A model generated the notes under the pieces. The model ran no database searches and was not told where the DNA came from. It worked only from the letters and a program-made list of their open reading frames with translations. The position numbers and the translations under genes were made by a program. Positions 27,893-32,035 of a stretch of DNA of 36,047 nt are shown in pieces. Numbering within the stretch: position 1 is the first letter of the stretch; each line of letters starts with the position of its first letter. Source of the DNA: Planctomycetota bacterium (GTDB taxonomy: Bacteria; Planctomycetota; UBA8742; UBA2392); assembly GCA_020425515.1 (NCBI GenBank), contig JAGQRI010000101.1, forward strand, positions 1-36,047. The letters run 5' to 3'.

Positions 27893-29002
27893 CTAGCTCA
27901 CGCCGGACAACGTGAGGGTGATGTTATTGCCGCCGGCGACCGGGTTCGGCGCCCCTGCCAGGTCGTTGCTCAGCGAAGCCTTCTGACCGTTCTTCTCAGT
28001 GTCAACAACATACAGAGTCCAGGTGCCCGTTGAAATCTCGCCGTTCAGGTTCATCAACGGCCCGTTTGCCGTGTTGGGGAAAGTCAGGATGTTGGCTGCA
28101 TTGTAGGTGTCGAGCTTGTAACCGTTGCCAAAATCGTTCGACTGGTCGGCGGTGTCGGGGAACTGTGTCGCCGCCCAGTTCCCGGAGGGCGACACCAGCA
28201 GCGCCCACAGCTCGGTCGCAGGCTGAAGATTCGCGTTGTAGTAAATCGAGAGGCTGACGGTCGCCGATTCGACATAGAACGTGCTGGCAAAGGTGAAGTC
28301 GTTCGCAAGCATGCGCCCCGTTCCGAACCAGCCGATGTCGAACGGCATCCGCTGCCCGGCGGCTTCCGGGATGGATCCATAGTTGCCCGAGGCGAGGTTG
28401 AGGGTATCCGCTTCGCTGGGTGATCCGCCGACACCCGTGGGTTCGCCGCGGTTAATGTGCATGCTCGCGTTGCGGAACAGGCAGCGTCCGTCTGCATCGC
28501 CGACGTAGTCATAAATCTCGGCCTTCCAGCGTCCGGCGCTGTCCATGCCATCGAACTCATACTGGAAGTCGATTTCGAGGTTGGCGGCAAGGTCGTTCTG
28601 ATTGCCTGTATCGACTGTCTTCCATCCTGATTTCGTACCGTTCGGCGCTTCCACGCGGCACAACAACTCGGTGTCGGAAAGGAACAGATCGCCCGGCGGA
28701 GCCGTCAGGTACCAGTGCACGCGGACTTCCTCGACCGTCGCGCTGCCCATGTCGAACTCGACCGTAAGGTAGTCGTCCTCGTTCTGGGCGTGGTCACCCG
28801 CTTCGGGGACCTTGATCGAGCGCATCTCCTCAGGGAAGGTGCGGGTGTTGTAGTACGCCCGAAGCAGCGCATGCGAGGCCAGCGCCCGATCCGGCAATGG
28901 GCGTTCCTTGTCCTTGTCCTTGTCCCAAGGCGCCTGGCAGTCAGCCCCGAGAAGCACGAACACCGTCAACATCAGCAACAGGATCAAACGGTCCTTGTGC
29001 AT
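27893..29002 (-). CDS. Exported protein with proprotein-convertase P-domain-like region
   Basis: A 369-residue protein with a signal sequence (RLILLLMLTVFVLLGADC). Cys at residue 22 could be a lipid-attachment site, but Asp just before it is not the usual lipobox. After a charged linker (DKDKDKERPLPD), two beta-sandwich parts follow. The C-terminal one (about 240-369) shows WALLVSPSGNW, ANILTFPNTANGPLMNLNG and STGTWTLYVVDTEKNGQKASL, typical of the P domain found after subtilisin-like proteases. No protease domain is present, so it would be a stand-alone adhesin or lipoprotein. GCGGGGGAAACC precedes ATG 29002. Confidence 0.78.
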   Translation of the reverse strand: MHKDRLILLLMLTVFVLLGADCQAPWDKDKDKERPLPDRALASHALLRAYYNTRTFPEEMRSIKVPEAGDHAQNEDDYLTVEFDMGSATVEEVRVHWYLTAPPGDLFLSDTELLCRVEAPNGTKSGWKTVDTGNQNDLAANLEIDFQYEFDGMDSAGRWKAEIYDYVGDADGRCLFRNASMHINRGEPTGVGGSPSEADTLNLASGNYGSIPEAAGQRMPFDIGWFGTGRMLANDFTFASTFYVESATVSLSIYYNANLQPATELWALLVSPSGNWAATQFPDTADQSNDFGNGYKLDTYNAANILTFPNTANGPLMNLNGEISTGTWTLYVVDTEKNGQKASLSNDLAGAPNPVAGGNNITLTLSGVS

Positions 29003-29060
29003 GGTTTCCCCCGCTTCAGTGCAGCTAACAATCGTGTCTAATGAGATTTACAAACTTATC

Positions 29061-29442
29061 CGCGGAAGCCGCGCAGGTCAACACAACTCGGATGCCCGGA
29101 ACCAGCCGGCGTTAAATGCCGCGTGCCCCATTCCAGCTGCCGGTGACCCGGACCGACTGAACACACTGGTCGCTCACATACAGTGTGTCTTCGTCCAACC
29201 CTGGTCCCGACAACTGGAATGAGGCACGCCGTATGAGTGTCGGGGGCTGGGGGGCCTGCCTTGGGGCAGATGGTCGTTTCACGACTCCCCCGACTCTCAT
29301 TAGTTCTGGCTGCGCACTCCTTGCTCGGAACACCAGAACTATACCCCACGTAATGGAATTGGCAAATAGAATCGCTCGTTTTGGCGAGAATTTTCACGTG
29401 TAAGATACACTAATGCATCATAGTGTTCGATTATCTTACACG
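29061..29442 (-). ncRNA. Candidate structured non-coding RNA, unknown class
   Basis: The gap between the P-domain gene and nadC holds no credible gene but a chain of inverted repeats. From the minus-strand 5' end: P9, arms 29397-29407/29432-29442, with an inner stem 29408-29412/29421-29425; P7, 29302-29309/29333-29340; P4, 29233-29246/29287-29300 (13 of 14 paired), enclosing hairpins 29256-29269 and 29273-29285; P1, arms 29121-29143/29207-29229, with inner stem 29161-29168/29181-29188; and hairpin 29061-29073. P1 pairs along all 23 positions in the minus-strand transcript with three G-U pairs (29128/29222, 29137/29213, 29140/29210); on the plus strand these are C/A mismatches. This asymmetry is why I assign the minus strand. 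No features of RNase P RNA, tmRNA, SRP RNA or 6S RNA were seen. It could also be a 5' or 3' UTR of a neighbour. Confidence 0.5.
29341..29442. other. Low-GC segment with a long interrupted palindrome
   Basis: Only 40 of these 102 bases are G or C, against the GC-rich surroundings. It ends in an interrupted palindrome with arms CGTGTAAGATA and TATCTTACACG. Foreign origin, a mobile-element remnant or a regulatory DNA site are possible readings. Confidence 0.6.
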
Positions 29443-29459: not shown

Positions 29460-30332
29460 TCAGCGCCGAACCTTCAGAGACACGTCCAGCGCGGGCGCGG
29501 AGTGGGTCAGGGCGCCCACGCTGATCCGCTCGACACCAGTCTCGGCGTAATCACGCGCAGTGTCTAATGTCACCCCGCCGGAGACTTCCAGCTGCGTTTT
29601 CTTTACAGCCTCGTCCCCCATGCCACGGAACTCGACCACGGCCCGGATGTCTTCAAGCGAAAATTCGTCCAGCATCACGACGTCGGCCTCGGCCTGGATT
29701 GCCGCCCTGGCTTCTTCGACGGTCTCGGCCTCGGCAGTCAGGCGCCGGTCCGGGTGCGCCTCGCGCAGGCGGGCGATGGCTTCGGTGAGGCTCAGACCGC
29801 TCAAATACAGGTGGTTCTCCTTGATCATCATCTCGTCGTAGAGGCCCATCCGGTGGTTCGCCCCGCCGCCGCAGCGCACGGCGTACTTTTCAAAGGCCCG
29901 CAGCCCGGGCGTCGTCTTGCGAGTGTCGAACACCATGGCACGCGTGCCCTCAATGGCGTCGGCAAAGCGCCCGGCCATGGTGGCGATACCGCTGAGGCGC
30001 TGGATCAGGTTCAAGGCCGTGCGCTCGCCGGCAACGAGCAAGGGCAGCTTGCAGGTTACGGACGCGGCGACGGTGCCTGCGCGCAGGCGGTCGCCGTCCA
30101 CGGCCTGGTATTCGACGGTTGCATCTTCATCGAGCTTACCAAAGACGATTTCGAGCCATTGCAGCCCGCAGATGACGCCGTCCTGCTTGATGCGCAGGTC
30201 GGCGGTGCCGGTCTTGTCGGGGTCGAGCAGCGTGCCGCCGGTCAGGTCGCCTTTGCCGAGATCTTCCTGCAGCGCGACAACGGCAAGCTGGTCCGCCAGC
30301 AGGGTAAGGATTTCATCCATGTAATGGCGCAT
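29460..30332 (-). CDS. nadC: Nicotinate-nucleotide pyrophosphorylase (carboxylating)
   Basis: Quinolinate phosphoribosyltransferase: makes nicotinate mononucleotide from quinolinate and PRPP in NAD synthesis. The 290 residues include EDLGKGDLTG near the N-terminus, GERTALNLIQRLSGIAT, DTRKTTPGLRAFEKYAVRCGGGANHRMGL-type PRPP/quinolinate-binding residues, MIKENHLYLSG, TAEAETVEEARAAIQAEADVVMLDEFS and LEVSGGVTLDTARDYAETGVERISVGALTHSAP. Length is normal. ATG 30332 (MRHYMDEI) is selected because GGGA lies seven bases ahead; ATG 30320 has no ribosome site. It is 77 bases after the transglutaminase gene on the same strand. nadA and nadB are not in the window. Confidence 0.95.
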   Translation of the reverse strand: MRHYMDEILTLLADQLAVVALQEDLGKGDLTGGTLLDPDKTGTADLRIKQDGVICGLQWLEIVFGKLDEDATVEYQAVDGDRLRAGTVAASVTCKLPLLVAGERTALNLIQRLSGIATMAGRFADAIEGTRAMVFDTRKTTPGLRAFEKYAVRCGGGANHRMGLYDEMMIKENHLYLSGLSLTEAIARLREAHPDRRLTAEAETVEEARAAIQAEADVVMLDEFSLEDIRAVVEFRGMGDEAVKKTQLEVSGGVTLDTARDYAETGVERISVGALTHSAPALDVSLKVRR

Positions 30333-30409
30333 GATCGGGTCCCGTGCCTGGTGCAAACACGGATATAGCCGTCTCCCGGCCTGTGCACCAGACGCGCGGG
30401 CCGCGAGCT

Positions 30410-32035
30410 TCAGTCGTCTTTGGAAGCTTCGTCCGGCTTGGGCTCGACGTACGGCTTCATGGCGTCGCTCCAATCCCACTTGGGCGCACCCTGGATGCGG
30501 AAGGCGGACCCGTCTGCCATGGTGTAGGCATCGATTCTCGGGCGAATGTCGTGCCGGATGCATCTCGATGAGCGACCGCCGCCGCGCGTTTCGCCCGGCT
30601 CGTCAATCTCGAACATCACGTAGCGCGCCGAGGTCCCCATCTCCTGCACGGTTGCGTCCACGGGGACCCACTTGCCCAGCCACACCTCGGCCCAGGCGTG
30701 ATAGCCGAAGATGCCCTTGCCGGTGCTTTCCATGTAGGCGTACACGAACCCGCCGATATTGCGCGCGGGCAAGCCGGCCGCGCGCGCCAGCGCCACGAAC
30801 AGCGCCGCGTGCTCGGTGCAGTCGCCCGTGCACTCGTCGTAGGCCTGCTTCGCGCTGGCCGAGCCCGTGCTGCCGCTGCCGTTCTTCAGCCGCTTGTCGG
30901 TGAAGCGCATGATGGCCTTGGCTACGCTGAGCGAGTCCTTCTTGCCTTTCGCCAGCTTCTCGGCGGCCTTGCACAGGTCGTTGTCATCGCTCTGGCACAT
31001 CGCCGTGGCGCCGAGGTACTTCTTCACATCGTCAGGGACTTTCTCAAGCGGATAGGCCGGCGCGTCGAAGTCGCGGGTCAGGCGCTGCGACTTCAGCCGC
31101 AGCGCGTATCCCTTGTCGTACTTGATGACGTCGTGGTAGGCGTTGGTGTCGGCTATGACGGGCACGCCGTCGCCGTCGTCGTGTTCGTACTCGAAGTGGA
31201 TCTGCATTTCCGTCAGCGACTTGTAGTCCTGCAGGCTGACGTTCGCGGCCATCGTGTTGCGCAAGCTTACGCGCTCGGGCTTGAACGGGTCCGGGATTTC
31301 TTTCACCCGCTCCAGGCTGTAGCCGCCCGCGCTTTCATACATCACGGGCAGGTCGTCCTCGCCGACGATCACCGTTCCCGCGCGGCCCGAATTGACGATC
31401 TTGATCTGCCAGCCATCATCGACCGTGTCGTCGCTGCGCTTGTGCTTCACCTTCGCGCTGACCGTCCAGGTCGATTCGTTCAGCGTGTGCCCGCCGCTGT
31501 CCAGACTCCAGAACTTCAACTCGTGCCCCGGCTTAAGCTGATTGGACTGCTTCAGCACGTGCCAGGCCTGCACGTCGTTGTAGACGTCCTTGTCGCCCAA
31601 TTCGACGGTGCTGACGAGCGGCTTGTTCTTGTCGACCGTCTCGGTGATCTTGATCTGCTTGTCGTCCCAGGCAGTTTCCGTACGGATGGTCTGGCCGCCG
31701 TTCTTCTCGACGTCCACGCTCCTGATAGTGCGCCAGTTGGTCTCGTACCAGGTGTCGGTTTCGGCTTCGGACTCGAAGGTCATACCGTCGAAGCTGCGCT
31801 TGATCTGCAGCCACATCTGCTCGTGCTCATGGATGACCTTGCGACCGTCCAGTTCTTCCGTGGTGTGCGTGCCCTTCAGCCAGCCGATCTTCGAGCCCAT
31901 GTAGTACATCAGGAAGCTGTACTCAACGACGTCCGTCGCCTGCTTCGGCTTCGCTTCGGTTTCCTGCGCGGCAGGTGCGTTGAACGCAAAGGCCAGCAGA
32001 ATCAGCAATGCAAATGGAATTCGCAGTCGGCTCAT
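30410..32035 (-). CDS. Exported transglutaminase-like protein
   Basis: A 541-residue protein with a signal peptide at 1-23 (RIPFALLILLAFAFNAPAAQ). The C-terminal third is a transglutaminase-like fold with the Cys-His-Asp triad visible at C406 (GDCTEHAALFVALARAAG), H446 (IFGYHAWAEVWLG) and D460 (WVPVDATVQE). The N-terminal part (about 30-340) is beta-rich, as in other secreted planctomycete and acidobacterial transglutaminase-like proteins. Bacterial members are usually thought to act as peptidases or crosslinkers; substrate unknown. GGAGACGACC precedes the ATG, and TACAAT at 32060-32065 on the minus strand is a likely -10. Confidence 0.87.
   Translation of the reverse strand: MSRLRIPFALLILLAFAFNAPAAQETEAKPKQATDVVEYSFLMYYMGSKIGWLKGTHTTEELDGRKVIHEHEQMWLQIKRSFDGMTFESEAETDTWYETNWRTIRSVDVEKNGGQTIRTETAWDDKQIKITETVDKNKPLVSTVELGDKDVYNDVQAWHVLKQSNQLKPGHELKFWSLDSGGHTLNESTWTVSAKVKHKRSDDTVDDGWQIKIVNSGRAGTVIVGEDDLPVMYESAGGYSLERVKEIPDPFKPERVSLRNTMAANVSLQDYKSLTEMQIHFEYEHDDGDGVPVIADTNAYHDVIKYDKGYALRLKSQRLTRDFDAPAYPLEKVPDDVKKYLGATAMCQSDDNDLCKAAEKLAKGKKDSLSVAKAIMRFTDKRLKNGSGSTGSASAKQAYDECTGDCTEHAALFVALARAAGLPARNIGGFVYAYMESTGKGIFGYHAWAEVWLGKWVPVDATVQEMGTSARYVMFEIDEPGETRGGGRSSRCIRHDIRPRIDAYTMADGSAFRIQGAPKWDWSDAMKPYVEPKPDEASKDD

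Follow-up and report, generated by a model that had tools for sequence, protein, structure and literature searches.

A predicted stand-alone structured small RNA gene between nadC and a P-domain lipoprotein gene in one family of Planctomycetota

The closest described systems are bacterial small RNAs (sRNAs) which expose C-rich segments to their targets. The sRNA sX13 of Xanthomonas depends on C-rich loops together with G-rich motifs in mRNAs and is independent of Hfq (PMC3771888), and the C-rich regions of IsrR have been modelled on Shine-Dalgarno sites, likewise with no dependency on Hfq (PMC9410917). In a search of open-licence papers, neither a description of the RNA reported here nor a trans-acting sRNA in planctomycetes was found. 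The locus lies in a window of 36,047 nucleotides (the whole stretch of DNA that was analysed) from a MAG, assigned to the Planctomycetota as judged by its near relatives, and is situated in the 457-nt intergenic gap between nadC and a P-domain gene, both neighbours being located on the minus strand. With the C-rich-loop, Shine-Dalgarno-targeting sRNAs, which form a functional kind and not a sequence family, it shares a conserved single-stranded C-rich loop, present in 12 of 12 homologues. The region very probably represents a gene for a stand-alone structured small RNA, read from the minus strand and preceded by a sigma70-type promoter of its own. Its parts, as predicted from the sequence, and those of its surroundings are as follows.

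29460..30563, minus strand: nadC, the upstream neighbour (QRPTase_C, 4.9e-57)
29370..29383, minus strand: conserved block CAAAACGAGCGATT directly 5' of the -35 box, a candidate activator or UP-element site (alignment)
29338..29365, minus strand: sRNA promoter TTGCCA-N16-TATAGT with conserved spacer CATTACGTGNGG (10/12 matches; comparison with relatives)
29114..29331, minus strand: predicted sRNA, about 218 nt here, with both ends inferred (covariation, promoter, synteny, fold z=-8.7)
29233..29300, minus strand: hairpin I (5') with the C-rich loop and, in this genome, an extra two-hairpin insertion (folds in 12/12 homologues)
29249..29254, minus strand: CCCCCC run in the open part of hairpin I (C-rich in 12/12 homologues)
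29116..29234, minus strand: long hairpin II, composed of a closing stem of 23+ bp, internal loops and an apical hairpin, its 3' arm running into the U-tract (compensatory changes, covariance model)
29168..29177, minus strand: invariant apical-loop sequence GUGAGCGACC (identical across homologues)
29114..29116, minus strand: U-tract after the 3' arm, UUU here, a predicted intrinsic terminator (homologue sequences)
29053..29081, minus strand: separate P-domain gene promoter TTGACC-N17-TAAGTT (element upstream of the gene in relatives)
27893..29002, minus strand: P-domain lipoprotein gene (PF01483) with the G-rich ribosome-binding site (RBS) GCGGGGGAAACC (Pfam 1e-07; orthologue in 16/16 family genomes)

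The minus strand of the entire gap folds with -193.8 kcal/mol (z=-6.6, a value equalled by none of the shuffles), the plus strand with z=-4.0 and the RNA proper (~29331-29114) with z=-8.7. All repeats named within the gap in a preliminary description are found. The largest of them, 29121-29143 with 29207-29229, was described correctly as pairing over 23 positions with exactly three imperfections, each C/A on the plus strand and thus U-G in a minus-strand transcript, and an ungapped inverted-repeat search lengthens this pairing to 28 nt at 82%. The three-way junction proposed for 29233-29300 does exist, as a 14-nt stem (93%) enclosing two 5-bp hairpins, but it is confined to this genome, its relatives having a simple hairpin. 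Similarly, the structured minus-strand RNA suggested for 29061-29442 holds as to structure and strand but not as to extent, which is ~29331-29114 instead of the whole gap. None of the hairpins at 29061, 29301-29340 and 29397-29442 is as a whole part of the mature RNA; the small 29061 palindrome falls within the spacer of the P-domain gene promoter and the 29301-29340 hairpin overlaps the -10 box of the RNA gene. Transcription would start at 29331, about 7 nt past the -10 box, and end at the U-tract. Across the family the small RNA would measure ~165-220 nt, ended by the base of the long hairpin followed by the U-tract.

The interval from nadC to the sRNA promoter contains an inner hairpin flanked by a perfect 11-bp inverted repeat (CGTGTAAGATA/TATCTTACACG, arms 29397-29407 and 29432-29442). 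Most of genus g1 retains the elements TGTAAGATAATC and CTTACAC, and the inner arms vary and still pair, as judged by eye. As there is no U-run on either side, this repeat is not an ordinary terminator; it may be an operator or a 3' hairpin belonging to nadC.

With a covariance model built on the long hairpin, which scores 126.9 bits at 29116..29234, the RNA is detected in 12 of 16 genomes from a single uncultured Planctomycetota family, at one locus each; additional weaker opposite-strand matches are a palindromic echo. A thirteenth family genome, G007, contains a diverged form in which the loop is the same. A homologue search had been proposed in the preliminary description; DNA homologues are present just after nadC in all five same-genus genomes examined and in three of genus g2. 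Outside the family, covariance models R1 and R2 returned nothing credible in 294 phylum genomes (278 of them non-family) or in 20 class genomes; three weak out-of-family matches with E values of ~1e-3 to 5e-3 were rejected, as they cover no more than 49-77 nt and none contains the conserved loop. Evolution has kept the folded shape of the small RNA in at least 12 of the 16 related species, and within this sampling the RNA is restricted to one planctomycete family.

In genus g6 (G010, G013, G015; L051, L053, L186) a different hairpin is observed at the RNA's place downstream of nadC. It carries the constant loop YUACCGUCAC, is positioned just before the P-domain promoter and could either stand in for the RNA or represent a second one. 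Both hairpins are present in G007.

Alignment of 12 sequences of the long hairpin reveals that 96.0% of the cells pair and that 15 of the 35 pairs show double (compensatory) changes, a value as high being reached by 0 of 500 shuffles. The covariation score is 0.423 compared to 0.213 +/- 0.016 in shuffles, and pairing falls to ~39% if the partner is shifted by one base. In an alignment of 10 sequences, 16 of 39 pairs of this hairpin exhibit changes on both sides. Selection for structure had been proposed on the basis of a single sequence, with arms changing without compensation as the observation that would speak against it; in the homologues the arms vary with compensation. The pairs comprise 363 Watson-Crick, 40 G-U and 3 A-C cells. 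Since A-C cells would correspond to G-U in a plus-strand transcript, the ratio of 40 to 3 identifies the minus strand as the transcript, in agreement with the conserved promoter in front and with the strand proposed originally.

Hairpin I forms in each of the 12 homologues, with z between -2.3 and -6.1. From genus to genus the stems vary in sequence yet remain complementary, as seen by eye in single folds, the alignment being poor there, and the open loop of the hairpin is C-rich and anti-Shine-Dalgarno-like (GCCCCCCU / CACCCCUCCUU / GCCCUCCCU) throughout. At the other end of the RNA, the U-tract following the 3' arm consists of U5 in G001, U6 in G011 and U7 in G005 and G012; it is weak (UUU) here and in several genomes and absent in G008, and terminator prediction on this stretch called none at the UUU tract.

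The sRNA promoter, TTGCCA-16-TATAGT at 29365-29338, has 10/12 matches (mean of 0.2 in shuffles), and no other promoter-like site is present in the stretch. The sequence CATTACGTG.GGTAT.GTT is invariant in eight aligned genomes, with related versions in G007, G008, G009 and G012. In the block further upstream, CAAAA is invariant in the same 8-genome alignment and the remainder is largely conserved in genus g1. The unusual conservation of both the block upstream of the -35 box (CAAAACGNNCGATT, CAAAACG) and the spacer CATTACGTGNGG (29344-29359) points to a binding site for a regulator or to a special sigma factor, and suggests that the sRNA itself may be regulated. The promoter motif shows no enrichment over control elsewhere in the genome.

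Whether the RNA is a UTR or stands alone had been left open. Its own promoter and the synteny strongly favour a stand-alone gene, as do the U-tract in several homologues and the separation of the RNA from the P-domain gene in G009. In G009 the RNA is still next to nadC, and the P-domain gene, equipped with a promoter of its own, is found on a different contig. In G008 the RNA and the P-domain gene are found side by side, with nadC on a different contig, and in G012 another gene is inserted between nadC and the RNA. It is improbable that the RNA acts in cis on the P-domain lipoprotein gene, as a riboswitch-like leader or as an attenuator with the long hairpin as expression platform. The RNA is positioned directly upstream of that gene in 11 of 12 genomes, the pair is kept together away from nadC in G008, and the long hairpin could act as a terminator, all of which would suit a leader. 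However, a TTGAC...TA element follows the RNA and precedes the P-domain gene in almost every one of the 16 genomes, also in G009 with no adjoining RNA and in genomes where the RNA is absent, and in G009 the RNA persists with no P-domain gene downstream, so that by sequence the leader reading was rejected. A mobile-element end, an attC-like site, a degraded coding sequence or a palindromic repeat acting as DNA can be set aside with near certainty: several palindromes do lie close together, but the RNA is single copy in its own genome, without the further copies expected of a transposon end or repeat, and the conserved promoter, the minus-strand wobbles and the compensatory changes all speak against a DNA element. 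Neither is a reading frame conserved, a 113-aa minus-strand ORF and a 104-aa plus-strand ORF having DNA-level similarity only, with frame switches within single genomes. Known RNA classes fit no better. The locus had been called unrecognised and an Rfam covariance-model search had been proposed; of 4227 families, none exceeds the gathering cut-off in the window, and at E 5 there is no match at the RNA in 11 homologous loci or at two g6 loci, only chance matches below cut-off. No tRNA or tmRNA is found in the window. 6S RNA (RF00013) gives no match at the locus even at E 10. Elsewhere in the genome a separate 6S candidate (G000:C244:6952-7148) scores 46.0 bits against a cut-off of 46.4, several relatives scoring above it, and the Rfam 6S model seems to be a poor fit for this lineage. 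A CsrA sponge of the CsrB/RsmZ type was rejected, as there are two main hairpins only, whose conserved loops are C-rich and GUGAGCGAC, respectively, without GGA.

As a stand-alone RNA, the transcript would work post-transcriptionally by base pairing without Hfq and probably tunes translation of other genes. Hairpin I would display its C-rich loop (CCCCCC, CCCCUCC or CCCUCCC), which would pair with G-rich ribosome-binding sites and block translation, the neighbouring P-domain lipoprotein mRNA being a likely but not the sole target. The long 3' hairpin would terminate and stabilise the RNA, and a protein is the most likely binding partner of the invariant GUGAGCGAC loop of this hairpin. This explanation as a whole, comprising the stand-alone sRNA, C-loop pairing and the protein-bound loop, we regard as evenly poised, and pairing by the C-rich loop, taken separately, is put forward tentatively, at slightly under even confidence. 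Tested precedents for C-rich loops that act on G-rich sites are provided by sX13 (PMC3771888) and IsrR (PMC9410917). Hfq was detected in 0 of 16 family genomes by a search which was positive in 5 of 14 controls. The P-domain RBS reads GGGGGA in most genomes, and the energy of the loop-to-RBS duplex places this gene within the best 6-38% of local genes (~20-36 kb per genome) in 11 genomes, with a Fisher p of ~0.013 which has to be read in view of related genomes and rough gene calls. The P-domain mRNA is therefore best described as a lead among possible targets. A C-rich loop would pair with many sites in a G+C-rich genome, which counts against specific targeting.

Within the RNA, conservation is highest in the apical loop of hairpin II and not in the C-rich loop. 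The loop sequence GUGAGCGACC is identical in 12 of 12 homologues and in the diverged G007, the stem sequence GUUGUCGG/CCGGCAGC is conserved beyond the needs of pairing, and this genome has no exact 11-base complement of the GUGAGCGAC loop outside the RNA itself, counts elsewhere resembling those of a control. Since the invariant part is a loop without such a complement elsewhere in the genome, what is conserved may be a function other than mRNA pairing. These observations, together with the undetected Hfq, would favour a stand-alone RNA acting by protein binding, as a sponge or 6S-like decoy, via the GUGAGCGAC loop and the conserved internal loops, with the C-rich hairpin only stabilising it. 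We consider this a real but minor possibility, as it leaves unexplained why the C-rich loop is kept while its stem changes; furthermore, 6S proper is encoded elsewhere in the genome, and a CsrB-type sponge is difficult to reconcile with conserved loops devoid of GGA and the lack of a multi-hairpin repeat. It is unlikely that a lineage-specific RNA docks an RNA-binding protein by its invariant GUGAGCGAC loop and rod-like hairpin and is guided to ribosome-binding sites by the C-rich hairpin; if so, Hfq-less planctomycetes would have a riboregulation system of their own. In any case, a conserved, independently transcribed sRNA with a constant loop would offer a handle on RNA-based regulation in such bacteria and on any protein replacing Hfq.

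In comparison with known systems, the predicted RNA is a new family within the structured bacterial sRNAs, absent from Rfam, for which the present alignment is good enough to build a covariance model. With 6S RNA (RF00013) it has in common the stand-alone gene, the closing stem, internal loop and apical hairpin as well as a similar overall size, but it does not match the 6S model. IsrR and other Firmicutes sRNAs with C-rich loops resemble it in their single-stranded C-rich regions, the proposed targets of which are likewise Shine-Dalgarno sequences, and in the intrinsic terminator, predicted here. IsrR, however, has several C-rich regions and acts in an A+T-rich genome where G-runs mark Shine-Dalgarno sites (PMC9410917), whereas the host genome here is G+C-rich, so that specificity would have to come from elsewhere. 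The likeness to sX13, compared by description, lies in the hairpins with C-rich apical loops, the proposed pairing to G-rich (4G) motifs near start codons and the own gene (PMC3771888). Contrary to sX13 with its three C-rich loops, the RNA described here, as known from its sequence, has a single one, combined with a ~110-nt hairpin bearing an invariant loop which is not C-rich.
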